Shown here: positions 35,004 to 44,778 of the stretch, piece by piece
Position numbering within the stretch: the first letter of the stretch is position 1
Layout: each line of letters opens with the position of its first letter
Origin: Cyclobacteriaceae bacterium
GTDB taxonomy: Bacteria; Bacteroidota; Bacteroidia; Cytophagales; Cyclobacteriaceae
Reading direction: 5' to 3'
Assembly: GCA_026989505.1 (NCBI GenBank)
Contig: JALSJF010000240.1
Location: forward strand, 1-44,778
Length of the DNA: 44,778 bases
Program-made: the position numbers and the translations under genes
The notes under the pieces: generated by a model
What the model was told of the DNA's origin: nothing
Seen by the model: the letters and a program-made list of their open reading frames with translations, nothing else
The model's database searches: none

Positions 35004-35011
35004 AATATTTG
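35004..35011 (+). promoter_or_regulatory. Candidate -7 element of the sulfur-cluster promoter
   Basis: AATATTTG differs by one base from TANNTTTG and is the best match in the 135-base gap. No good -33 TTG precedes it, as expected for a regulated promoter. It would give a leader of about 45 bases before the TTG start at 35064. Confidence 0.25.
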
Positions 35012-35063
35012 AACAATTGTAAAATTATGTGTTACTTCAAGGTTTAAATAACAGAATAATATT

Positions 35064-35378
35064 TTGCAAAACACCATTTCAAAAAGAAAAATCAGCACGG
35101 AGAAACTCGCCAAGATAGCGGAGATTTTTCAGGGGCTGGCTTACCCGGTTCGTCTGCAGGTACTTGAGTTATTGGAAGATGGGAAAGACTATTCGGTAGG
35201 GGATATCCTCGACAAGGTGCAGATAGAAGCCTCCCTCTTATCCCATCATCTGGCAAAAATGAAGAATATCGGCATTATTGATTCCTACCGGCAGGGACGG
35301 AATATCTATTACCGCCTGGCCATTAAAGAGATTACCAAGGTATTCGACTGCATCTATTCATGTGAACTAAAATTATAA
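35064..35378 (+). CDS. ArsR-family regulator of the sHdr cluster (sHdrR-like)
   Basis: 104 residues with a TTG start; no ATG lies in frame upstream, and the next Met is inside the DNA-binding helix region. The winged helix-turn-helix is clear: LAYPVRLQVLELLEDG, the recognition helix around EASLLSHHLAKMKNIG, and the wing RQGRNIYYRL. The only two Cys are Cys96 and Cys100 in the last helix (FDCIYSCELKL). Regulators of this family at other sulfur-oxidation clusters (sHdrR, SqrR, BigR) release DNA when Cys residues form a disulfide or polysulfide bridge, but there the pair is split between two helices. Regulation of the following genes is inferred from position. Confidence 0.85.
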   Translation: MQNTISKRKISTEKLAKIAEIFQGLAYPVRLQVLELLEDGKDYSVGDILDKVQIEASLLSHHLAKMKNIGIIDSYRQGRNIYYRLAIKEITKVFDCIYSCELKL

Positions 35379-35399
35379 GCAAACATAAACCGTAAAAAA

Positions 35400-35639
35400 A
35401 TGAGTGACATTAAAGTAGTGAAAACCCTCGACAACAGCGGCCTCTCATGCCCGATGCCGGTTGTTAAAACCAAGAAAGCCATCAAAGACATGGAGATAGG
35501 TGATGTGCTGGAAATGATCTCTACCGATCCGGGTTCAATTCCGGATATGGAAGCCTGGGCCCGGCAGACCGGCCATGAGCTGCTTGAGGCCCACGATGAA
35601 GGCGATAAGTACCGCTTTCTGATTAAAAAGACACACTAA
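35400..35639 (+). CDS. tusA: TusA-family sulfur carrier protein
   Basis: 79 residues, the usual size. The family motif LSCPMPVVK places the sulfur-carrying Cys17 after the first strand (CPxP). TusA accepts persulfide sulfur and passes it to other carriers. In sHdr-type sulfur oxidizers it moves sulfane sulfur toward the sHdr complex, together with DsrE-family proteins. It lies 21 bases after the regulator and 12 bases before a DsrE3A-like gene, so a role in sulfur oxidation fits better than in tRNA thiolation. Confidence 0.93.
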   Translation: MSDIKVVKTLDNSGLSCPMPVVKTKKAIKDMEIGDVLEMISTDPGSIPDMEAWARQTGHELLEAHDEGDKYRFLIKKTH

Positions 35640-35651
35640 ACCCGTAAAACT

Positions 35652-36164
35652 ATGGATGACAAACCCAAAAAATTAGCCCTGATTGCGAGCCAAGGTACGC
35701 TCGATTGGGCCTACCCGCCCTTTATCCTGGCCACTGCGGCCGCCTCAATGGATTGGGACGTAGCCATTTTCTTCACTTTTTATGGCTTGCCCTTGTTGAA
35801 GAAAGATTTGAAAGCCCAGGTTTCCCCGGCCAGTAACCCGGCCATGCCCATGAAGATGCCGTTTGGCGGTGAGAGCTTCCGCAACATCAACTGGCCGATG
35901 CCGAATATTCTCATGAGCAACATGCCCGGCTTTGAAGCTATGGCCACCAGCCTGATGAAGAAAACCTTCAAAGACAAAGGTGTGGCCTCTATTGAGGAGC
36001 TGCGCGAAATGGCTGTGGAACTGGATGTGAAAATGATTGGCTGCCAGATGACCATGGACGTATTTGGCTTTAAGAAAGAAGAGTTTATTGAAGAAGCAGA
36101 TATAGGCGGAGCGGCAACATTCCTTGAATTTGCTGCCGACTCTAACGTTAGCTTGTTTGTTTAA
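35652..36164 (+). CDS. DsrE3A-like sulfurtransferase
   Basis: 170 residues. The start LALIASQGTLDWAYPPFILA and the helix-strand pattern AIFFTFYGLPLL are typical of DsrE3A. The likely active Cys131 lies in MIGCQMTMDVFG, and the family ending GGAATFLEFA is present. There are no membrane helices, unlike DsrE2. TusA and DsrE3A genes are often neighbours in sulfur oxidizers and exchange persulfide or thiosulfonate sulfur. The other DsrE-like gene of the cluster (37590-37970) is shorter and belongs to a different subgroup. Confidence 0.88.
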   Translation: MDDKPKKLALIASQGTLDWAYPPFILATAAASMDWDVAIFFTFYGLPLLKKDLKAQVSPASNPAMPMKMPFGGESFRNINWPMPNILMSNMPGFEAMATSLMKKTFKDKGVASIEELREMAVELDVKMIGCQMTMDVFGFKKEEFIEEADIGGAATFLEFAADSNVSLFV

Positions 36165-36183
36165 TTACTAAATATGGGCCCGG

Positions 36184-37269
36184 ATGCAAATACGGTTTAT
36201 CGATGCAGGCACTGTTTCTGGCTTGCGGTCGCAATCTATTTACCATGGGCTCGGCTATGCTCAGCAACCCACTACGCCTGACACTATAGTGCTGGCAACC
36301 CCAGGAACACCCTATATGTGTGTAGGGTACTTCCAGGACGTGGAACATGAGCTTGACATGAACTACTGCCGGCTAAACCACCTGCCGGTTATCAGACGTG
36401 AAACCGGGGGTGGGGCGGTCTATATCGACCAGGGCCAGCTTTTTGTGCAGTGGGTATTTCAACAACGTTCACTCCCTGTGCGAGTGGACCTGCGGTTTCA
36501 ACTCTTTGTAAAACCATTGATAGAAACCTATAAGTTCTTTGGCATAAATGCATACTACCATCCCATCAACGATGTACACGTTGACGGCAAAAAGATCGTG
36601 GGTACCGGGGCCGCTACCATTGGCAACGGGGAAGTGGTTACCGGCAATTTTTTATTCGATTTCAATTACCCGGCCATGGTTGAAGCCATTAACGTACCCG
36701 GTGATGATTTTCGTGCAGCGGTAAGGCGTAACCTGCGCCACTACCTCACCACCATGGCCCTGGAACTGGATGAACTGCCAGCCCGGGCCGAGGTGATAAC
36801 CGTGTACCGCCAGCAGTGCGAGAAAATCCTGGGGGTAAAGGCCGTGGCCGGGGAATTTACCCACGAAGAACTCCGGCAGATGAAACGGATAGAAGAAAAG
36901 TTTCAGCGTGACAACTGGCTTTATCAGACCAAACGGCCGCCTGTGAGAGACAAGCTGTTTAAGGTACACCTTGGCTTGTGGATAGGCCAGTGCCACCGGG
37001 AAGTAGCCGGGAAGACCATCAAGGCCCTGGTAACCATGAAAGACGACCGGATAACCGAGTTGCTGCTCAACGGGCCGGAACCTGCTGCCACGCTTAAGGA
37101 AATGGCAGACGCCCTGGTAGGTGCCCCGATGGACAAAGCGTTGATCGCGCAACGCCTGCAGCCACTGCTGGCAGCAGAGAAACGCCCGGCCTGGACGGAG
37201 GTGATCTTCAGGACAAAGGAATTGCAACAGCAACAAACAGGACATGGAACGCTGGCAAGGAGTAATTAA
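36184..37269 (+). CDS. Lipoate-protein ligase sLpl(AB) for LbpA
   Basis: 361 residues. The LplA-type catalytic domain shows RRETGGGAVY (71-80, lipoyl-AMP binding), the HPINDVHVDGKKIVGTGAA region with catalytic Lys137, and GNFLFDFNYPAM. The last ~110 residues (about 250-345; RDKLFKVHLGLWIGQCHR, ALVTMKDDRITELLLNG) resemble the accessory LplB-type domain fused on, hence sLpl(AB). In sulfur oxidizers this ligase attaches octanoate or lipoate specifically to the lipoate-binding protein LbpA. The gene context with two lbpA genes and a LipS-type gene supports this. Housekeeping lipoylation of 2-oxoacid dehydrogenases presumably uses other genes outside the window. Confidence 0.88.
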   Translation: MQIRFIDAGTVSGLRSQSIYHGLGYAQQPTTPDTIVLATPGTPYMCVGYFQDVEHELDMNYCRLNHLPVIRRETGGGAVYIDQGQLFVQWVFQQRSLPVRVDLRFQLFVKPLIETYKFFGINAYYHPINDVHVDGKKIVGTGAATIGNGEVVTGNFLFDFNYPAMVEAINVPGDDFRAAVRRNLRHYLTTMALELDELPARAEVITVYRQQCEKILGVKAVAGEFTHEELRQMKRIEEKFQRDNWLYQTKRPPVRDKLFKVHLGLWIGQCHREVAGKTIKALVTMKDDRITELLLNGPEPAATLKEMADALVGAPMDKALIAQRLQPLLAAEKRPAWTEVIFRTKELQQQQTGHGTLARSN

Positions 37270-37489
37270 TGCCCGGGATGTGGCCCGGCTGTATAACGAT
37301 AAGAGTAACCACTGGTTGTTACTGGAGGTTATCAAAAAGGATAAAAACGGCAAAGCAGAAGAGTTTAAACTAATTGCCTGTGACCCGGATAAAGACCGGC
37401 TGTATGAACTGATGGAAGACGATGACTGGGACTGGGACAAGCACTACATTTTTGTATTTGCCGACCCGGACAGCCTTTGTGAGCTATGA
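37244..37489 (+). CDS. Unknown 81-residue acidic protein inside the sHdr operon
   Basis: 81 residues. It starts inside the ligase gene (26-base overlap in another frame), so it is very probably translated with it. It is rich in Asp, Glu, Lys and Trp (LMEDDDWDWDKHYIFVFADP near the C-terminus), with one Cys near its end (LCEL) and no signal peptide or membrane helix. No family is recognised. Tight overlap with sLpl(AB) and placement before lbpA suggest a soluble partner of lipoylation or of the sHdr complex, but this is inference only. Confidence 0.7.
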   Translation: MERWQGVINARDVARLYNDKSNHWLLLEVIKKDKNGKAEEFKLIACDPDKDRLYELMEDDDWDWDKHYIFVFADPDSLCEL

Positions 37490-37504
37490 TGGCAGATGTA
37501 ATTT

Positions 37505-37586
37505 AAATTGACTTTTAACTTGATAACAGGTAACTTATAAACCAGACTGAAATTGATTTTTAACTTTTAACCGATAATTAGTAAAC
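37505..37586 (+). repeat. Imperfect tandem duplication before the second dsrE-like gene
   Basis: Two copies of about 37 bases, 37505-37542 and 37550-37586, both start AAATTGA and end TAAAC and share ATTTTTAACTT-like blocks, with a 45-base period. It fills most of the 100-base gap, the widest inside the cluster. It may carry an internal promoter or regulator site, but no TANNTTTG box is evident. Confidence 0.45.
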
Positions 37587-37589
37587 AAT

Positions 37590-37970
37590 ATGGAAGATTT
37601 TGAAGGAAAAAAGATCCTTGTAATTCAAACACACGGAGTTGAAACCCCCACCCGGACGTATTCGCCCTTATTTTATGCCATGGCGGCCGCAGCTATGGAA
37701 ATAGAAGTTATGGTGTGGTTTACCATGAATGGCACCAACCAGCTAAAAAAAGGCGAAGCGGAAAAAGTGCAACTGGTGAAAGACTCTAATGTTAACCTTA
37801 AAACCATGCTCGAAATGGCCATGGACAGCGATGTGGAGTTGCGCGTCTGCCAGCAAAGCCTTGAGTTATGGGATATGACCGAAGACGATTTGATTGATGG
37901 TGTGGAAATTATGGGCGCTACCAGTATTATCGAGCTGTCGCTCAACTATGACCATGTTATGTATTTTTAA
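37590..37970 (+). CDS. DsrE-family sulfurtransferase-like protein (second copy)
   Basis: 126 residues with the DsrE/F fold pattern: KILVIQTHGVETP, SPLFYAMAAAAMEIEV, VWFTMNGTNQL and DDLIDGVEIMGATSIIELSL. A single Cys87 in ELRVCQQSLELW sits where DsrE proteins carry their sulfur-binding Cys. It is shorter than the DsrE3A-like protein at 35652 and probably belongs to another DsrE3 subgroup (3B or 3C), which I cannot separate by eye. It is placed just before lbpA, so it may deliver sulfur to LbpA or the sHdr complex. Confidence 0.82.
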   Translation: MEDFEGKKILVIQTHGVETPTRTYSPLFYAMAAAAMEIEVMVWFTMNGTNQLKKGEAEKVQLVKDSNVNLKTMLEMAMDSDVELRVCQQSLELWDMTEDDLIDGVEIMGATSIIELSLNYDHVMYF

Positions 37971-38012
37971 ACAACAACAAATAACTATTTTCTAACTTAA
38001 ACCTATACACTA

Positions 38013-38480
38013 ATGGCTCACGAAGAAGTAAAAGGTTGTGTTATACTTAAAGACCTTCACTATTCCGTTCAGGATAACACCTGGGTAAAAGCCGATGGCG
38101 ATGTAGTTACCATTGGCATGACCGACATAGCCCAAAGTCTGGCAGGCCCTATCCTGCATGCAAAGACCAAATCGGTGGGTACCGCCCGCAAGAAGGGCCG
38201 GCCGATTGCTACCGTAGAAAGCGGCAAATGGGTGGGGCCCGTTAAATCGCCCGTTACCGGGGAAATTATTGAAGTAAACGAGCAACTGGCAGGCGATGCC
38301 CAGTTAATTAACCGCAGCCCGTACCGTGACGGCTGGGTAGTGAAAATGAAAGCCAGCAACCTGGAGGCCGAACTGGCCGAAATGACTACCGGGGAAGCAG
38401 CCGTTGAAGCTTACCGGCAGAAGATCGAACAGGACGGCATCGCGTGTACCCATATTGATGATTCGGATACTTATGATTAA
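38013..38480 (+). CDS. lbpA: Lipoate-binding protein LbpA, first copy
   Basis: 155 residues, GcvH-like fold. The lipoyl-attachment Lys72 lies in the turn TVESGKWVGPVKSPVTGEI. GcvH hallmarks VTIGMTDIAQ and LINRSPYRDGWVVKMK are present. In sHdr organisms LbpA is not part of glycine cleavage. It carries the sulfur or redox intermediate on its lipoyl arm and is needed for sulfur oxidation. The location right before sHdrC1 identifies it as LbpA. Two Cys (Cys9, Cys145) are outside the hallmark sites. A longer C-terminal tail than GcvH (about 130-155) is visible. Confidence 0.92.
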   Translation: MAHEEVKGCVILKDLHYSVQDNTWVKADGDVVTIGMTDIAQSLAGPILHAKTKSVGTARKKGRPIATVESGKWVGPVKSPVTGEIIEVNEQLAGDAQLINRSPYRDGWVVKMKASNLEAELAEMTTGEAAVEAYRQKIEQDGIACTHIDDSDTYD

Positions 38481-38538
38481 TAACTATCTGATAATCAAAT
38501 AATTAAAAATAAGTTTTAAACTAAAACTACTGACAACT

Positions 38539-39249
38539 ATGATGGCATTAGACCTTAGTCAGAACAAACACGCTGACGTCAGTTATGAGGAGAAGGAAAG
38601 GCTTTTCGAAGAGGTGAAAGCTGACGAACGCTGGCATCATGTGCTTTACGGTTGCTACGAGTGTGGCATCTGTGTGGCCGCCTGCCCCTCAGCGCGTTTT
38701 TATGACTTCAGCCCGCGGGTAATTGCCCAGGCGGTAGCGCGTGAAGATATCGACCTGATCTACACCCTGATGAGCGACAGTATCTGGGATTGCTCCCAGT
38801 GCTTTAGCTGCGACCGCTGCCCGAGGCAAAACTCACCGGGGCAAATTATCACCGTAATGCGTGAAGTGGCGGTGAAAAACGGCCTGCAAACGGCCAAAGA
38901 CGCCCTGCAGGGCTATGGCAGGATCATCTATAAAATCATGGCCACCGGCTCGCAGGTATCGCCCGATATGCTGCAGCCCGATGCCTTCCCGGATTGGGGT
39001 ACCCACGTGTACGAAATTGCCGAGAACCTGGAGGAATGGCGCAGGGCCTTGCCACCCGAAACGCTGCACACCACCGAAACCGGCTGGAAAGTTGATCAGA
39101 AAACCATCATCGAATTATACCTTATCTGGCACATGACCGGGGTTATGGACCTCATTGAAGGTGTTGACGAAGGCTTGTTTATGATTTTGGTGGATGTGAT
39201 GGAAGAACGGTTGGAAGAAGCCGGTTACGATGATATAACGTTTGATTAA
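38539..39249 (+). CDS. hdrC1: sHdrC1, iron-sulfur subunit of the sHdr complex
   Basis: 236 residues. Two [4Fe-4S] motifs are seen: Cys39, 42, 45 and 49 (CYECGICVAACP) and Cys85, 88, 91 and 94 (CSQCFSCDRCP). The second has only two residues between its third and fourth Cys, one fewer than the usual CxxCxxCxxxCP. HdrC subunits pass electrons between HdrA and HdrB. In sHdr clusters the order C1-B1-A-hyp is conserved and is exactly followed here. The C-terminal half is helical, without further motifs. The complex is cytoplasmic and thought to bind loosely at the membrane. Confidence 0.92.
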   Translation: MMALDLSQNKHADVSYEEKERLFEEVKADERWHHVLYGCYECGICVAACPSARFYDFSPRVIAQAVAREDIDLIYTLMSDSIWDCSQCFSCDRCPRQNSPGQIITVMREVAVKNGLQTAKDALQGYGRIIYKIMATGSQVSPDMLQPDAFPDWGTHVYEIAENLEEWRRALPPETLHTTETGWKVDQKTIIELYLIWHMTGVMDLIEGVDEGLFMILVDVMEERLEEAGYDDITFD

Positions 39250-39267
39250 CGCTAAACCCTATATGAT

Positions 39268-40455
39268 ATGATACATTTACCTGTTGTTAAAGCTACTGAC
39301 CGGAAGTTTGAGGCAGATCCGGACAATGCCCCCACCGAAGATATTCGTGAAGAACTCTTTCAATTGGAGAAAGAAGGAGAGTTGGAAGTTATCCGGGTGC
39401 CGGATAATTATATTGAACTACCTACCAAGTACGGCCGCATGAAAAAAATCCCGGTAGAAAAAACCTGGCACCACAAAAGCTGTGGCCAGTGCGGGCACAT
39501 TCCGGGCTATTCTACCTCTATTTTCTGGCTCAACCGGCAGTTTGGCCTGGATTACTACGACCCTACCGACCAGACTTCCTGCACCGCCTGGAACTATTAC
39601 GCTTCGGCCACCTCTAACCCCGAAGCCCAGGCTGCCGTGGCCATCCGCAACTTTGCCGCTGCCGATGAGGTAGGCTACTTCCCGCTCATTCACTGTGGTA
39701 CCAGCTTCGGCCATTATAAAGAAGTACGCCACGCCCTGGTACACCAGCATGACTTGCGCAGGAAGGTGAAGAAGATCATGGAACGCCTTGGCAAAAAACT
39801 GGTGATTCCGGAGGAAATTGTGCATTACAGCGAGTGGGTACTGGCCATGAAAGACCGCATAGCCGAGCGCCAGGAGATAGACATGAGCAACATCACCGCC
39901 ACGGTGCACCCGGCCTGCCATTACCACAAGCTGATAGAAGAAGATGCCATTTACGATAGCGAAATCTATGGCGCCCAGCGCACCGCCATTGTTACCGGTA
40001 CCCTGCAGGCACTCGGCATCAATGTGGGGGATTACTCCACCTGGTTCGATTGCTGCGGCTTTGGCTTCCGTCACATCCTGGTATCGCGCGATTTCTCCCG
40101 TTCATTCTCGGTACAACGCAAGATCGAAGTGATGAAAGAGGAAGTGGACCCGGATATTGTGGTAACCCACGACACCGGGTGTGTAACCACGCTTGACCAG
40201 AGCCAGTTTGCCGGCCGTGCCCACGACAAAAAAGTAGGCTTGCCGGTGATGTCAGATTCGCAGGTAGCGGCCCTGGCCATGGGGGCCCACCCCTATAAAG
40301 TGCTGCAACTGCACTGGCACAATACCGACAACAAGCCTTTCTTACGCAAGTTAGGCCTCGATATCGATAAACAATGGGCCGAATTCCAGGCCGAAGTTGA
40401 CCTGATTAAGGCCGGCAAGAAAGAATACATGACCTGGGAAGACGCTGATAAATAA
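39268..40455 (+). CDS. hdrB1: sHdrB1, cysteine-rich catalytic-type subunit of sHdr
   Basis: 395 residues with two Cys-rich domains. The first has Cys72 and Cys75 (KSCGQCGHIPG), Cys105 (TSCTAWNYY) and Cys143. The second has Cys217 (HPACHYHKL), Cys262-263 (WFDCCGFGFRH) and Cys305 (HDTGCVTTLD). HdrB proteins hold non-cubane iron-sulfur clusters in such CCG domains, where the sulfur substrate is bound. The last CxxC of the canonical second motif is reduced to CVTT. An N-terminal extension of about 60 residues precedes the first domain. Confidence 0.9.
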   Translation: MIHLPVVKATDRKFEADPDNAPTEDIREELFQLEKEGELEVIRVPDNYIELPTKYGRMKKIPVEKTWHHKSCGQCGHIPGYSTSIFWLNRQFGLDYYDPTDQTSCTAWNYYASATSNPEAQAAVAIRNFAAADEVGYFPLIHCGTSFGHYKEVRHALVHQHDLRRKVKKIMERLGKKLVIPEEIVHYSEWVLAMKDRIAERQEIDMSNITATVHPACHYHKLIEEDAIYDSEIYGAQRTAIVTGTLQALGINVGDYSTWFDCCGFGFRHILVSRDFSRSFSVQRKIEVMKEEVDPDIVVTHDTGCVTTLDQSQFAGRAHDKKVGLPVMSDSQVAALAMGAHPYKVLQLHWHNTDNKPFLRKLGLDIDKQWAEFQAEVDLIKAGKKEYMTWEDADK

Positions 40456-40489
40456 TTTTTTTAATTACACTTAATTGAATGTACTAATT

Positions 40490-41548
40490 ATGGCTAATGA
40501 AAACATACTTGTAATTGGCGGTGGCCCTACGGGGCTGGAAGCCGCCAAAGGTATTGCCGACTTGGGTTACAAGGCAATACTGGTAGAAAAGCGCGAGCGG
40601 TTGGGTGGTACGCCCGATGCTTCCGGCTATGCTGCCCTCACACCCGATATGCGTGATGCCGGGGAGGCTATGGATGAAATGCGGGCTGCCGTGGAGAATA
40701 ACCCTAATGTAGAAATTATGCTGAACACAGAAGTAACCGGGGCCGAAGGCGAAACCGGTAACTTTAAGGTAAAGGCTAAGTCGGCTGGCAATGAGGTGGA
40801 GATTGAGGCGGGCGCAGTAATTATTGCTACCGGTTTTACCCACTTTGACCCGGGCCGCGAAACCCAGAAGTACGGGTATTATGAGCACGATGACGTGCTT
40901 ACCCTGGTAGATGCCGAAAAAATGCTTAAAGAAGGCAATTTTGTCCGCCCTTCCAATGGCGAGAAGCCCAAAAGGGTGGCCTTTATCCAGTGTGTAGGCT
41001 CCCGCGACCGCCAGATTGGCAATGAGTACTGCTCGAAAGTGTGCTGTGGCATTTCTTCCAAGCAGGCCATTGAGGTACGCGAAATGGTGCCCGACTGTAA
41101 AGTGTTCATCTTCTATATCGACATGCGTATGTATGGCTATTGGGAGAATGAAATTTACTGGCCGGCCCAGGAAAAACACAAAGTCAACTACATCAAAGGA
41201 ATGGCCACCGAGATCATTAAGAAAGGGGACCACCTGATTGTGAAAGGAGAAGATACCACCATGCGCAGACCGATGGAAGTGCCCATGGATATGGTTATCC
41301 TGGCCGTAGGCATGGAACCCAGTGCCGGCACCAGGCAGGTAGCCGATATTTTTGGGGTGAAGAAGAACCAATACAACTTCATCGAAACCATTGGTGGGGC
41401 CCTGAATACGGTTTCTACCAATGTTGAAGGTGTTTTTGCCGCAGGTGCCTGTACCGGGCCTTCAGACCTGGAGGACTGTATCTCCGCTGCCGGTTCGGCC
41501 GTGATGAAATCTATTGCCGCAGTGAGAAGAGTAGCCGTACCTGCCTGA
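40490..41548 (+). CDS. hdrA: sHdrA, FAD- and FeS-containing subunit of sHdr
   Basis: 352 residues from ATG 40490 (a TTG at 40475 is less likely). The N-terminal FAD-binding Rossmann motif ILVIGGGPTGLEAAKG is followed by the HdrA FeS signature with Cys168 (QCVGSRD), Cys181, Cys185 and Cys186 (YCSKVCCGISSKQA), then a C-terminal FAD segment FAAGACTGPSDLEDCISAAGSA. It is about half the length of methanogen HdrA and lacks its thioredoxin-reductase insertion and ferredoxin ends, as is typical for sulfur-oxidizer sHdrA. It should exchange electrons between the sHdrB/C units and an unknown acceptor. Confidence 0.92.
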   Translation: MANENILVIGGGPTGLEAAKGIADLGYKAILVEKRERLGGTPDASGYAALTPDMRDAGEAMDEMRAAVENNPNVEIMLNTEVTGAEGETGNFKVKAKSAGNEVEIEAGAVIIATGFTHFDPGRETQKYGYYEHDDVLTLVDAEKMLKEGNFVRPSNGEKPKRVAFIQCVGSRDRQIGNEYCSKVCCGISSKQAIEVREMVPDCKVFIFYIDMRMYGYWENEIYWPAQEKHKVNYIKGMATEIIKKGDHLIVKGEDTTMRRPMEVPMDMVILAVGMEPSAGTRQVADIFGVKKNQYNFIETIGGALNTVSTNVEGVFAAGACTGPSDLEDCISAAGSAVMKSIAAVRRVAVPA

Positions 41549-41550
41549 AA

Positions 41551-42288
41551 ATGAGCCAGCTTATCGACATGGAAGCCGCCAAGGAGTTTATGAAAGAAAC
41601 CCTGGCGAAAGTGGAAAAAGAAAACCTGACGGATATTGCCAACTCCCTGGTAGAAAAAAGTGCGCTTTTTCAACAAGTTCTGGCTCAAGAGCGCTTAAAT
41701 GAACTATCGCAGGAAGAACTGGACCAGGTTTTACAGCGGATATTCTCTATCCGCAGAAAACTGCCGGAGGTCTATGGGCATATTTCCTTTCATAAGCTCA
41801 GGTCAGCCATTTTTCACCTGCTTTACAGTGCCGGCAAGCCCGATTTTCGTTTTCAGGCCTTTTGCGATGCCCTGGGGGAATTAGATACCCCGTTAAAGTA
41901 CGATATAACCGGAGAACTTCTCCATTTTACCTTCCCCAATAAATACTGGCTGTGGAGCCGGTGGATGTGGGACCCCAAGAATAAAACCGGGGCCCTGCCA
42001 TTAGTTACCAGCGAAGATTTCGACCTGCAAGGCGAAACCCTGGGCGAAGTATATATGAAAGTAGGCAAGGCCGTGGCCTTCGTCCATTCGGTAGCCGAAA
42101 TGGCTGAATTTCAGTTTATTCACCGGTCGTTGTTTGGTACCGATGTGTACTTGAGTTGTGTTTACATCATCTACTCGTACACCGTGCTGCAAATGAAAAT
42201 GACCAAAGAATTTAATGAAGTGATGCCGGGGCTGACGGAGTTCTCGCGCAGGTTATTGGGCGTTTATGGCATGCAAACGGCTGCCTGA
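41551..42288 (+). CDS. Conserved 'Hyp' protein of sHdr clusters
   Basis: 245 residues, no signal peptide, no clear membrane helix. Mostly helical, with aromatic-rich segments HFTFPNKYWLWSRWMWDP and VYIIYSYTVLQMKM. Only two Cys are present (Cys104 and Cys202) and no FeS motif. In sHdr clusters a hypothetical gene between hdrA and the second hdrB/C set is conserved, and this one takes exactly that place, 2 bases after the sHdrA stop. Its role is not known. A structural or membrane-docking part of the complex is one idea, based only on its aromatic and basic patches. Confidence 0.82.
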   Translation: MSQLIDMEAAKEFMKETLAKVEKENLTDIANSLVEKSALFQQVLAQERLNELSQEELDQVLQRIFSIRRKLPEVYGHISFHKLRSAIFHLLYSAGKPDFRFQAFCDALGELDTPLKYDITGELLHFTFPNKYWLWSRWMWDPKNKTGALPLVTSEDFDLQGETLGEVYMKVGKAVAFVHSVAEMAEFQFIHRSLFGTDVYLSCVYIIYSYTVLQMKMTKEFNEVMPGLTEFSRRLLGVYGMQTAA

Positions 42289-42332
42289 TGATAGAAAATA
42301 AATGAAATACTAAACTAAGCTGATCTAAGATT

Positions 42333-43592
42333 ATGCCGATTGATAAAAAACAAATAATAGAAAAAGAAAGTGCCGTTGTCGATGGAATAGAACTCTCGGC
42401 TGACTGGAACCGGATGTTCGAGCAGCGGGTGGTTCATTATGAAGATAATGATGCACTGGATAAAGTACGGGATTTAGACGGGGCCGAGTCCATCGGTTGG
42501 TGCTACCAGTGCGGGCAGTGCGTGCCGGTATGCCCCGTTGATGCCGTAGGGGAGTATGGGCCGTTCCGTACCTATAAAGACCTGCTCATGGGTGTTGACC
42601 TGTTTAAATCCGATGAACTGTGGAAATGCACCACCTGTATGCAATGCCTGCGGGTGTGTCCCAAAGCCGTGGATATGGTGCAAATTATGCCGGCCGTACG
42701 CGAAGAGGCAGTGATGGAAGGGGATGTGCCCGAAGAACTGCAGGAAGCCTTTGAAAACACCTTTGAGTATGGCAACCCGCTGGGGGAATCGCAGCGCAAA
42801 CGGGCCGACTGGATTCAGGAAACCGGCTCCGAGGTACCGCTGATGAAGGATAAAAAGGAGGCCGACCTGTTATGGTTTGTGGAGTGCTACCCGTCTTACC
42901 ATGCCCGCGGCAAAGAAGCCAGTGCAGCCCTGGCTAAAATTTTAAATACCCTGGGCAGCGATTTTGGCGTCCTCGGCACCGAAGAGAAATGTTCCTGCGA
43001 CTCCCAACGCCTGGCTGGTGAGGTAGGCCTGTTTGAGGAGTTTGCCGAGGAAAATATCAAGACCTTCAGCAAGTATAAGTTCAAACAAATGCTGGTTACC
43101 GATCCGCACGCCCTCAATGCCATCCGCAAAAAATACCCTGAGTATGGCGGTGAGTATGATGTCATTCACTATACCACCTACCTGGCCCCGTTGATGGAGA
43201 AGCTGGAGATGAAAAACACCCTTAACTATAAGGTAACATTTCATGATCCTTGTTATCTCGGGCGCCATAACGGTGAGTATGAAGCCCCCCGCAGTATTTT
43301 GCGTGCAATTCCGGGCGTTGAGTTGATTGAGATGGGCCGTTGCAAAGAACAAAGCTACTGCTGCGGAGGTGGCGGTGGCGGCATGTGGCTCGATGGCTTT
43401 ATGGCCGACCATGTAAGTGAGCGGCTGTCGGAAAACCGGGTGAAAGAAGCTGTGGAGACCGGTGCCGACCTGCTGGTGGTCTGCTGCCCTTATGAGGTTT
43501 CGCGCTTTGAAGATGCCGTAAAATCTACCGGCAATGAAGGTAAACTGTTGGTAAAAGATATTGCCGAACTGATAGTTGAAGCCATGGGGTAG
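42333..43592 (+). CDS. sHdrC2-B2 fusion (sHdrB3-like) iron-sulfur protein
   Basis: 419 residues. The N-terminal ~120 residues are HdrC-like with Cys57, 60, 63 and 67 (CYQCGQCVPVCP) and Cys99, 102, 105 and 109 (CTTCMQCLRVCP). From about residue 180 two CCG-type domains follow: VECYPSYHARG with EKCSCDSQRLAG, then HDPCYLGRHN, YCCGGGGGGMW and VVCCPYEVSRF. So one chain holds what some sHdr systems encode as separate C2 and B2 genes. I recall that a fused version is called sHdrB3 in 'type II' clusters, which also carry etfAB. No etfAB is seen in this window, but the cluster is cut at the right. HdrD and GlpC-like proteins share this architecture, so the gene context carries the assignment. Confidence 0.85.
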   Translation: MPIDKKQIIEKESAVVDGIELSADWNRMFEQRVVHYEDNDALDKVRDLDGAESIGWCYQCGQCVPVCPVDAVGEYGPFRTYKDLLMGVDLFKSDELWKCTTCMQCLRVCPKAVDMVQIMPAVREEAVMEGDVPEELQEAFENTFEYGNPLGESQRKRADWIQETGSEVPLMKDKKEADLLWFVECYPSYHARGKEASAALAKILNTLGSDFGVLGTEEKCSCDSQRLAGEVGLFEEFAEENIKTFSKYKFKQMLVTDPHALNAIRKKYPEYGGEYDVIHYTTYLAPLMEKLEMKNTLNYKVTFHDPCYLGRHNGEYEAPRSILRAIPGVELIEMGRCKEQSYCCGGGGGGMWLDGFMADHVSERLSENRVKEAVETGADLLVVCCPYEVSRFEDAVKSTGNEGKLLVKDIAELIVEAMG

Positions 43593-43646
43593 GCCCGGCA
43601 ACCGGAGAATAGTAAACAGATGATAACCAACACTATACTATAAACC

Positions 43647-44093
43647 ATGATAAAAATTGATAAATACGATGTGGATACCGGGCTCTTTTACGATCCCCGG
43701 GATCATTATTGGGTAAAAATATCGGGTTCTACCGCCCGTGTGGGCATGAGCCCGCTTATTCAGGAAACCAGCGGGGCTTTTGTGGCTGTACAGCTTAATG
43801 GCCTGGATAAAACGTTTGCCCGGGGTGAGGCCATTGGCAGCATTGAGGCTGAGAAACACGTAGGCCCGGTGAAAATACCCTTGTCGGGCAAAGTAACCCG
43901 GGTGAACGAAGCAGTAATTAACAACCCCCGCCTGATAAATTATGACCCGTATGGTGAGGGCTGGCTGATTGAAATGGAGCTGACCAATGCCGATGCCGAA
44001 GTGCCGGAGTTGATTTTTGGCGACCACCAGGTGGTAGCCTGGTTTGAGGAAGAACTGAAAAAATTCTCGGATAAAGGATGGATAGCCCAGTAA
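43647..44093 (+). CDS. lbpA2: Lipoate-binding protein LbpA, second copy
   Basis: 148 residues, GcvH-like, with the attachment Lys70 in SIEAEKHVGPVKIPLSGKV and LINYDPYGEGWLIEMEL near the C-terminus. It differs clearly from LbpA1 (ESGKWVG against EAEKHVG around the Lys; a different N-terminus and tail), so it is not a recent duplicate. It lies between the sHdrC2-B2 fusion and a LipS-type gene with 16 bases of overlap into the latter. It may serve the same complex in another step or state. Confidence 0.9.
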   Translation: MIKIDKYDVDTGLFYDPRDHYWVKISGSTARVGMSPLIQETSGAFVAVQLNGLDKTFARGEAIGSIEAEKHVGPVKIPLSGKVTRVNEAVINNPRLINYDPYGEGWLIEMELTNADAEVPELIFGDHQVVAWFEEELKKFSDKGWIAQ

Positions 44094-44778
44094 TAGCCGA
44101 ACAAAGCCTGATGGAGCAGGCCTTTGCCGTACGCAAAGCCAACTTTTGCGATGACATAAAATTTTATGCCCCCGGCTTGAAATCCTATAATATTCCGGAG
44201 TTTGAGCAGCAAAACCCCAACGCATTTTTGCCTATCAGTGTTACCGGCAACGCCTGTGCCCTCGACTGTGACCACTGCGATACCCGTATCCTCGACCCCA
44301 TGATCCCCCTGGATATGAAAGAAGGGGTGTTTGGTATGTGTGAAAAAATGCAGGCCAAAGGTACCGAATCGGTGCTGATCAGCGGTGGCTCCATGCGCAA
44401 CGGCCAGGTACCTTTTATGCGCCATATCGATGATATCAAGCGGGTAAAAGATGAACTAAGCATGAAAATTATTATGCACACCGGGCTGGTGAGCGAGGAG
44501 ATGGCCGAGGGGCTGGCCTATGCCGGGGTTGACGGGGTGGCCCTCGATATTATTGGCGCCCGGGAAACAATAGAGCAGGTATATCATATGAAGGCCACGG
44601 TACAAGACTTTGATACCACCCTGGAAAGGCTTACCCGTCATGGGTTGAGTATCCGGCCGCATATCATCATTGGTTTGCACTATGGCCGCCTTTTGGGGGA
44701 GTACAAGGCCCTGGAGATGATTAAAAAGTACCCCACCCACGCCTTGATCCTGGTAATTTTAACCCCCCTGCAGGATAC
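44078..44778 (+). CDS. Radical-SAM lipoyl synthase of the LipS1/LipS2 type (3' end outside window)
   Basis: About 233 residues are visible; the frame is open at the window edge. It starts at ATG 44078 inside the end of lbpA2 (16-base overlap); ATG 44111 is an alternative. The radical-SAM motif is CALDCDHC (CxxxCxxC), in ISVTGNACALDCDHCDTRI. A TIM-barrel-like pattern follows (VLISGGSMRNG, IIMHTGLVS, VDGVALDIIG, IRPHIIIGLHYG). In sHdr clusters two such enzymes, LipS1 and LipS2, together insert both sulfur atoms into octanoyl-LbpA. This one looks more LipS1-like to me, and the partner may lie just beyond the edge. A general biotin-synthase-like annotation would be wrong here given the context. 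Confidence 0.82.
   Translation, partial: MDSPVIAEQSLMEQAFAVRKANFCDDIKFYAPGLKSYNIPEFEQQNPNAFLPISVTGNACALDCDHCDTRILDPMIPLDMKEGVFGMCEKMQAKGTESVLISGGSMRNGQVPFMRHIDDIKRVKDELSMKIIMHTGLVSEEMAEGLAYAGVDGVALDIIGARETIEQVYHMKATVQDFDTTLERLTRHGLSIRPHIIIGLHYGRLLGEYKALEMIKKYPTHALILVILTPLQD

Follow-up and report, generated by a model that had tools for sequence, protein, structure and literature searches.

A probable type II sHdr-LbpA sulfur-oxidation operon on a Bacteroidota chromosome

Results

Layout of the gene cluster

The DNA analysed here (the window) is a whole contig, C240, of 44,778 bases; it belongs to a 3.51 Mb Cyclobacteriaceae genome (G000; phylum Bacteroidota) that is assembled in 273 contigs, 96% complete and 0.2% contaminated. 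Our subject is its last part, positions 35064-44778, where 14 open reading frames (ORFs), all on the plus strand and separated by small gaps, run to the contig end (Table 1). They encode a regulator, sulfur-handling proteins, a lipoate-protein ligase, two candidate lipoate-binding proteins (LbpA) and the subunits of a heterodisulfide reductase-like (sHdr) complex. An original prediction, made from the sequence alone, had named an sHdr sulfur-oxidation cluster at this place. The genes that it named, their order and their single direction are borne out by family scans and comparisons; its gene list missed an ORF of 81 amino acids (aa) at 37244-37489, Orf81, though this is conserved in relatives. 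Promoter and terminator scans gave chance-level results only.

Table 1. Features of the operon and, in the last two rows, recurrent neighbours of related clusters. Positions are those of the window unless a locus (L) is named.
Feature	Position	Strand	Evidence or remark
Candidate operator, perfect palindrome TTTAGAA-TTA-TTCTAAA	34969..34985	.	upstream of operon; same arms upstream of G001 operon
Candidate operator, TTGAACAATTGTAAAATTAT stretch	about 35009-35028		upstream of ArsR gene; recurs in G001
ArsR/SmtB-type regulator, 104 aa	35064..35378	+	NF033788 71.8 bits, cut-off 55; C-terminal CxxxC pair
TusA sulfur carrier	35400..35639	+	PF01206 92.4 bits; CPMP active-site motif
DsrE2-type sulfurtransferase	35652..36164	+	NF047629 209.9 bits (cut-off 210); PF13686 176.7 bits
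sLpl1, LplA-type lipoate-protein ligase, 361 aa	36184..37269	+	PF21948 107 bits; TIGR00545 99 bits, under cut-off
Orf81, small conserved protein, 81 aa	37244..37489	+	no family above cut-off; predicted fold pLDDT 81
DsrE-type sulfurtransferase, 126 aa	37590..37970	+	PF02635 75 bits; conserved VCQQS cysteine
LbpA1, lipoate-binding protein	38013..38480	+	PF01597 124.7 bits; VESGK lysine motif; N- and C-terminal cysteines
sHdrC1, 4Fe-4S electron carrier	38539..39249	+	PF13183 35.6 bits; NF041779 90.8 bits, below cut-off
sHdrB1, proposed catalytic subunit	39268..40455	+	NF041780 118.6 bits, below cut-off; methanogen HdrB 59 bits
sHdrA, Fe-S flavoprotein, 357 aa	40475..41548	+	best solved match 6tjr, 311 bits over residues 10-352
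Hyp (sHdrH), conserved subunit	41551..42288	+	no family; predicted fold pLDDT 91.7, pTM 0.90
sHdrB3, fused sHdrC2-B2	42333..43592	+	Fer4 domains at 57-112 and CCG (2 stretches), single ORF
LbpA2, second lipoyl-domain protein	43647..44093	+	PF01597 91.5 bits; EAEK lysine motif; no cysteine
LipS1 lipoyl synthase, cut by contig end	44078..44778	+	NF053742 169.5 bits, partial, cut-off 230; goes on in C52
Radical SAM-like neighbour	L008 315-1526; L021; L022; L027; L028; L030; L118 749-1891		beside sHdr cluster
Class V aminotransferase	L019 3-1415; L021 1-525; L030 12021-13577		PF00266 273 bits (L030)

The cluster goes on beyond the window. When the host's own genome was searched with DNA of a genus-mate (G001), genes for sLplAB, LipS2, EtfB and EtfA were found on contigs C52 and C267, together with one for a membrane protein that has Fe-S and CCG domains. 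The last 148 bases of the window are repeated, with 2 mismatches, at one end of C52, and at its other end C52 overlaps with C267 over 463 bases, with 7 differences (98.5% identity); such mismatches suggest strain variation. All 19 genes lie on a single contig in G001 (WFNR01000064.1), and likewise in G737, a genome of the same family; G001 has an extra ORF, for a four-helix-bundle protein, between sHdrB3 and LbpA2. The cluster, described as complete in the original prediction, is therefore complete in the genome and incomplete in the window, where LipS1 is cut at the contig end.

The cluster is not a chance grouping, since it recurs in loci titled with seven phyla or candidate phyla and since its core proteins are closely matched in the genus-mate: sHdrC1, sHdrB1, sHdrA and sHdrB3 are 91-95% identical between the two genomes and Hyp 78%, as against 89% and 79% for two topoisomerase subunits. 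Moreover, the G001 cluster occupies the first 17 kb of an 80 kb contig (C64) whose positions 20.0-29.1 kb match 13.7-22.8 kb of the window (a 155-aa ORF, two type II topoisomerase subunits, SpoU, DUF218 and DUF5686). Because C64 holds both, two assemblies put the cluster near the same genes, in a different gene order; window genes at 23-35 kb have no match within the 80 kb of the G001 contig that was read. At its far side the cluster gives way, on C267, to genes for a thioredoxin-like protein, a VUT transporter, ribonuclease Z, a STAS protein and purC. A chimera at the junction of trmB and the regulator gene, an eventuality that the original prediction had raised, is ruled out, within the reach of these assemblies, by the G001 contig, the overlaps of three contigs and the far flank on C267. 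Base usage resembles that of the neighbours, as had been said: GC content is 0.486-0.506 in the cluster and 0.466-0.508 in its flanks, GC content at third codon positions is also close, and tetranucleotide distance (0.186-0.189, against 0.138-0.186) equals or slightly exceeds the highest values of the flanks.

Type and kinship of the sHdr subunits

Type II sHdr systems are defined as shdrC1B1AHB3 with etfAB in one syntenic cluster (PMC11582611). In the window, shdrC1-B1-A-H-B3 with fused C2-B2 form one syntenic cluster at 38539-43592; etfAB share a contig with the cluster in G001 and G737 and lie on the overlapping contig C52 in the window's genome. A dedicated lipoate assembly (sLpl, LipS1, LipS2) adjoins it. 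Judged by its sequence, the cluster belongs to the type II sHdr systems.

The place of sHdrA was examined in a tree of 29 rows, 28 of them different. The 357-aa sHdrA groups with 6tjr, which we take to be sHdrA of Hyphomicrobium denitrificans, the database entry showing a generic molecule name, and stands apart from methanogen, Fusobacteriota and cyanobacterial plasmid HdrA (support 99/96); 6tjr is the sole type I reference in this tree and sits on a long branch, as does the plasmid row. A methanogen-type HdrABC would call for an HdrA of some 650 aa that falls with its methanogen counterparts, which neither the length nor the tree shows. An ordinary methanogen or fermentative Hdr is ruled out by this tree and the 6tjr match, in agreement with the original prediction. 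Further type I references were sought among viral contigs, which gave none, and plasmids, which yielded a lone sHdrB1 homologue and non-sHdr relatives. The former (L042, Acidithiobacillus ferrooxidans plasmid NZ_CP040512, 11491-15194) is 52.8% identical to the window's sHdrB1 and is accompanied by LbpA-like, hemerythrin, globin, hcp and NnrS genes, while neither HdrA nor HdrC is annotated within the 29 kb shown; it is an sHdrB1-type protein outside sHdr, perhaps with a role in nitric-oxide response. A Picosynechococcus plasmid (L043, 5092-10832) carries a tandem C-B-A / C-B-A Hdr-like cluster that falls outside the sHdr clade.

The two lipoyl-domain proteins

A conserved lysine and two cysteines are the hallmarks of LbpA (PMC6067878). 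LbpA1 has all three, the lysine in its VESGK motif and the cysteines at positions 9 and 145. In a tree of 43 lipoyl proteins (drawn without two rows from Nocardioidaceae, the one from Acidithiobacillus and any shorter than 130 aa, and with long branches flagged), GcvH, LbpA1 and two LbpA2 groups separate, and the six GcvH rows form a clade of their own (99/98). The branch leading to LbpA1 (100/99) leaves LbpA2 on the same side as GcvH, yet outside the GcvH clade. By this tree, identity with GcvH is rejected for LbpA1 and, with qualification, for LbpA2. The window's genome has a separate GcvH of its own. A GCV_H search found three proteins over cut-off (GcvH, LbpA1 and LbpA2) in each of the four sHdr genomes put to it and one in each of the two relatives that have no Hyp match. 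Of two curated GcvH models, LbpA1 passes NF002270 and stays below the cut-off of TIGR00527 (84.8 bits, cut-off 115.85); LbpA2 stays below both.

The absence of the LbpA cysteines, together with the GcvH-side position in the tree, makes the name LbpA2 the weaker of the two. Such an absence is a shared trait: if the row of G063 (Bacteroidota, but of a different class) is set aside, none of the 10 other Bacteroidota LbpA2 rows carries the N- and C-terminal cysteine pair, and three have an internal cysteine (one of them with a further cysteine in its over-long start). The LbpA rows compared from Chloroflexota loci bear cysteines. The claim of two LbpA proteins, both apart from GcvH, accordingly stands for LbpA1, even though that protein exceeds one GcvH cut-off; for LbpA2 it is weakened, as the cysteines are missing and the protein sits on the GcvH side of the tree.

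Orf81 and Hyp

Orf81 is present in all eight Bacteroidia clusters in which the ligase-DsrE stretch is covered (the window, L017, L019, L021, L024, L026, L028 and L118) and in both KSB1 clusters; at the threshold used it was not seen in eight other loci covering DsrE (L008, L029, L030, L031, L032, L034, L037 and L039). Among 395 genomes sampled from the phylum, where the search outside sHdr loci was made, only the window's own has it. A cysteine in its C-terminal region is invariant in 9/9 aligned rows, and a structure search gave no match (best E 0.74). Orf81 might be a sulfur carrier.

Hyp belongs to no Pfam or NCBIfam family. Its profile matched solved structures at chance level only (best E 0.13, a DNA-3-methyladenine glycosylase), and a profile of 24 rows had syntaxin as best match (E 0.065) and no glycosylase. 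With the predicted model, VIA-align gave 8-oxoguanine DNA glycosylase 3n0u as best match (Z 8.0, root-mean-square deviation 4.0, 170 of 208 residues aligned; next row Z 4.1), Foldseek returned nothing at E up to 0.001, and hhalign of Hyp against one glycosylase gave a probability of 0.35%. The likeness, seen in a predicted model, may reflect a common arrangement of helical proteins and is a lead only.

Candidate components of the remaining pathway

Outside the cluster, the window's genome encodes a protein resembling sulfide:quinone oxidoreductase (SQR), with mitochondrial SQOR as its nearest relative among solved ones (301 bits), and has four COX1 matches. Contig C232 carries a run of genes for an FeS-NrfD fusion, a 957-aa molybdoenzyme, a SulP permease (420 bits, cut-off 380), an ArsR protein and two YeeE-like ORFs. 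The molybdoenzyme has PF00384, PF01568 and PF04879 and the fused ORF PF13247 and PF03916, a SoeABC-like subunit make-up; its best solved matches are ArrA and thiosulfate reductase. A sulfite-oxidizing role for this enzyme would rest on linkage, since no curated family is reached. Such linkage is found in several relatives. In G063, the sHdr cluster and its radical SAM neighbour are closely followed by a molybdoenzyme gene together with its FeS-NrfD gene; the enzyme is 55% identical to that of the window's genome over 944 columns. In two Chloroflexota loci, a molybdoenzyme relative (58%) stands about 2.7 kb before the TusA gene (L037) and an FeS-NrfD relative (43%) less than 1 kb past the ligase (L038). 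The sHdr contig of G737 opens with an FeS-NrfD gene whose continuation is on another contig, the two having 24 identical bases at the join. These components make oxidation of sulfide to sulfate in the host plausible. Just beyond the molybdoenzyme and SulP genes of G737 (C11 5891-7681, L116), there is a 5'-nucleotidase-family protein resembling SoxB (266 bits, cut-off 550).

The two YeeE-like ORFs of C232 are 198 and 209 aa long, shorter than the 330-350 aa of SoxT, in the stretches of the genome that were read; type II genomes are reported to have no SoxT transporter (PMC11582611). The ArsR protein of C232 ends in C-x3-C like the cluster's own, which suggests shared control of this run and the cluster. 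Candidate operators lie upstream of the operon (Table 1).

G063 itself is a single-contig genome with a full type II cluster and an adjacent molybdoenzyme (C1; L008, L010 and L115). It also has SoxY, SoxZ, flavocytochrome c sulfide dehydrogenase (FCSD) and a type III SQR (661 bits, cut-off 525), and gave no COX1 match.

Distribution and history

We scanned 84,980 species genomes with patterns built from four Bacteroidota Hyp sequences; because of this origin, type I and distant type II systems are not expected among the hits. The 23 loci obtained comprise 10 titled as Bacteroidota or its families, 2 KSB1, 2 Neomarinimicrobiota, 4 Calditrichota, 1 Planctomycetota, 1 Nocardioidaceae and 3 Chloroflexota. 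Counting the window's own genome, Hyp is present in 3 of 59 relatives and in 2 of the 395 genomes of the phylum sample (the other being G063). The family survey gave Hyp matches in 11 of 390 genomes, nine of them above 300 bits; two near 22 bits with the Hyp profile were not counted as hosts. The nine hosts fall in 6 of 84 genera, and g15 and g18 mix genomes with and without the cluster. The survey of Bacteroidota genomes envisaged in the original prediction thus shows the cluster to be patchy.

In a concatenated tree of five proteins (25 rows, 1649 columns; sHdrC1 in 19 rows, sHdrB1 in 24), 11 rows from Cyclobacteriaceae, Saprospiraceae and unplaced Bacteroidetes form one clade (100/100), whose sister is KSB1 L027 (86/82), followed by KSB1 L023 with Planctomycetota L030. 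G063 joins Neomarinimicrobiota and Calditrichota instead (100/100). A single origin of all Bacteroidota clusters, with the 12 rows held together, was rejected by the approximately unbiased test (p 3.5e-43), which was run under LG+G4 without a mixture, on a group chosen after the sHdrA tree had placed G063 apart, and with the long branch L031 flagged. One patchy clade over two families and a second lineage in another class suggest at least two separate entries of sHdr into Bacteroidota. Within the clade, rows mostly split by family, Saprospiraceae L028 being basal here and together with the other Saprospiraceae on sHdrA alone. This pattern would fit an old acquisition followed by many losses, or an early exchange between families, and the tree does not resolve the donor; with the composition given above, it fits the earlier view that any transfer would be old.

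Two genes recur around these clusters. One, found beside the cluster in six loci and in G737, is for a radical SAM-like protein that scores 27.9 bits with PF04055 (cut-off 29.5); it was not seen beside the cluster in the window's genome, and the G001 contig starts too late to cover the upstream side. The other, which flanks the cluster in three loci, is for a class V aminotransferase, whose fold is of the cysteine-desulfurase type.

Discussion

Given its gene content, we read the window as carrying a type II sHdr-LbpA sulfur-oxidation operon on a Bacteroidota chromosome, and we put the probability of this reading, with the working proposed here, at about 0.84. What we observe is which genes are present, how they are ordered and linked in the genome, and what they are related to. 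Very probably, this gene set lets the host oxidize sulfur compounds for energy. The individual reactions, the direction in which the pathway runs and any gain of energy we infer from described systems. By this analogy, SQR encoded elsewhere in the genome would convert sulfide to sulfane sulfur, which TusA, DsrE2 and DsrE would hand to the lipoyl arm of LbpA1, itself presumably lipoylated by the dedicated ligases with LipS1 and LipS2. The sHdrC1-B1-A-Hyp-B3 complex would then oxidize the LbpA1-bound sulfur to sulfite, and the electrons would pass through EtfBA and the membrane Fe-S protein to the quinone pool. The NrfD-linked molybdoenzyme may turn sulfite into sulfate, to be exported by SulP, and heme-copper oxidases would use oxygen.

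A number of observations weigh against this reading. Several assignments fall short of curated cut-offs: DsrE2 is marginally below that of NF047629 (209.9 against 210 bits), the SQR-like protein reaches 197 bits with the one SQR model listed (cut-off 525), and the best NCBIfam labels of the C232 molybdoenzyme, DmsA/YnfE and PhsA (dimethyl sulfoxide and thiosulfate reductase), are far below theirs. Conversely, LbpA1 passes the GcvH subfamily model NF002270 (123 bits, cut-off 117). LbpA2 has the lysine and lacks both defining cysteines, and the accessible text of PMC6067878 names exceptions only for some archaeal LbpAs; this weakens the LbpA claim for LbpA2, not for the whole cluster. The only cysteines of the cluster's ArsR protein are Cys 96 and Cys 100 at its C-terminus, so it is without the pair of sHdrR, whose two conserved cysteines are Cys50 and Cys116 (PMC12423496); many shdr-linked ArsR proteins have no such pair (PMC12423496). 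SoxB gave no match in the window's genome or in G001, and AprA none in the window's genome, so Sox thiosulfate use and sulfite oxidation of the adenosine 5'-phosphosulfate type are not indicated. Finally, Black Sea isolates that include Bacteroidota and are reported to have a 'heterodisulfide reductase system', which may or may not be sHdr, showed no sulfide oxidation in culture (PMC11129491).

The most serious competing view is that these same proteins detoxify sulfide or sulfane, or provide a heterotroph with a small supplement, and do not sustain lithotrophic growth. We consider this to have slightly less than an even chance of being right. It would suit the kinship of the SQR-like protein with mitochondrial SQOR, the lack of a SoxB match in both genus members and the patchiness of hosts even inside genera; Hyphomicrobium, too, uses thiosulfate as a supplement (PMC12423496). 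However, the linked EtfBA and membrane Fe-S protein and, in relatives, the NrfD-type molybdoenzyme suggest a harvest of electrons. Much less probable is a reversed or bidirectional complex, reducing sulfite or disproportionating sulfur with Etf as electron donor. Etf complexes are able to run in either direction, and G063, having the full cluster and no COX1 match, may be an anaerobe. Against this, the window's genome has its four COX1 matches, its TusA, DsrE2, SQR-like protein and SulP fit an oxidative route, and the SoxY, SoxZ, FCSD and SQR of G063 itself fit oxidation.

Two further explanations concern the identity of the cluster and appear extremely improbable. That the contig is chimeric or a contaminant, with an operon from another phylum, might be suspected from an assembly of 273 contigs with the cluster at a contig end, but in G001 the cluster shares its 80 kb contig with homologues of the window's topoisomerase, SpoU, DUF218 and DUF5686 genes, and the contig bearing the cluster's last gene (C267) overlaps C52 and runs on into the genes named above, from that for the thioredoxin-like protein to purC; completeness, contamination and a composition close to the flanks argue in the same direction. 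An ordinary HdrABC, methanogen-like or fermentative, combined with a glycine-cleavage relay would account for the best NCBIfam labels, which are methanogen Hdr and GcvH, and for the score of LbpA1 with NF002270. Yet the Hdr labels of sHdrC1, sHdrB1 and sHdrA are far below their cut-offs, the short sHdrA falls with 6tjr, a separate GcvH is encoded in the genome, and LbpA1 and LbpA2 are both outside the GcvH clade.

Returning to the sulfur-oxidation operon, the peculiarities of the Bacteroidia and KSB1 clusters can be read jointly as an altered sHdr sulfur relay, a speculative reading that we hold to be rather unlikely. Orf81 would be a new family tied to sHdr, its C-terminal cysteine taking sulfur from TusA or DsrE; the cysteine-less LbpA2, encoded next to the lipoate genes, would be the carrier on which lipoate is built, or an electron shuttle, leaving LbpA1 as sole sulfur carrier; and two Bacteroidota families would have kept the system for long, with sulfite oxidation as its genomic neighbour.

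Bacteroidota are usually seen as organic-matter degraders, and this pathway is best known from quite different microbes. If our reading is true, there would be a non-phototrophic flux from sulfur to sulfate in a phylum passed over by surveys of sox and rdsr genes. The cysteine-less LbpA2 and Orf81 offer natural contrasts for the roles of cysteines and lipoyl arm in sHdr, and G063, with sHdr, SoxYZ, FCSD and SQR on a single contig, is a good target if a culture exists.

Comparison with known systems

The system is of a known type, and it is the host that is unexpected: sHdr, LbpA and the lipoate machinery have been described (PMC6067878, PMC12423496, PMC10332631, PMC11582611). A literature search, in the texts available, found no sHdr in a named Bacteroidota genome, and further papers or supplements may name one; 65,703 GTDB species were screened in PMC11582611, and some of the present genomes may already be in its supplement. 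A vent study reported two Bacteroidota genomes with complete sulfide oxidation, sHdr being unnamed in the part available (PMC10974373); in the Bohai Sea, 334 of 406 sHdr were assigned to 329 Proteobacteria genomes (PMC12345210). Two papers name Bacteroidota for YeeE and for Sox.

The closest counterparts are the published type II sHdr-LbpA systems (PMC11582611) and the group III clusters of Actinobacteria and Firmicutes (PMC6067878), which likewise hold fused sHdrB3, EtfBA, two LbpA, a ligase, LipS1/S2, TusA and DsrE in one cluster. The present system differs from published type II in its host phylum, one LbpA without both cysteines, an extra small protein with a C-terminal cysteine, an ArsR protein without the sHdrR cysteine pair, and a molybdoenzyme that is linked in relatives. 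Type I sHdr of H. denitrificans resembles it in an sHdrA that matches length-wide, in the C1, B1, A and Hyp subunits and in its dependence on LbpA; there, C2 and B2 are separate genes, Etf lies outside the definition, and SoxT and sHdrR are linked. Methanogen HdrABC has in common the flavin/Fe-S core of HdrA, the CCG domains of HdrB and the ferredoxin HdrC, whereas its HdrA is about twice as long as the window's sHdrA, which it matches in two separate stretches; to our knowledge, it comes without LbpA or lipoate genes. The sHdr loci of KSB1, Neomarinimicrobiota, Calditrichota, Planctomycetota and Chloroflexota have the gene content of the window, those of KSB1 with Orf81 as well, and in several of them the order of the modules differs.

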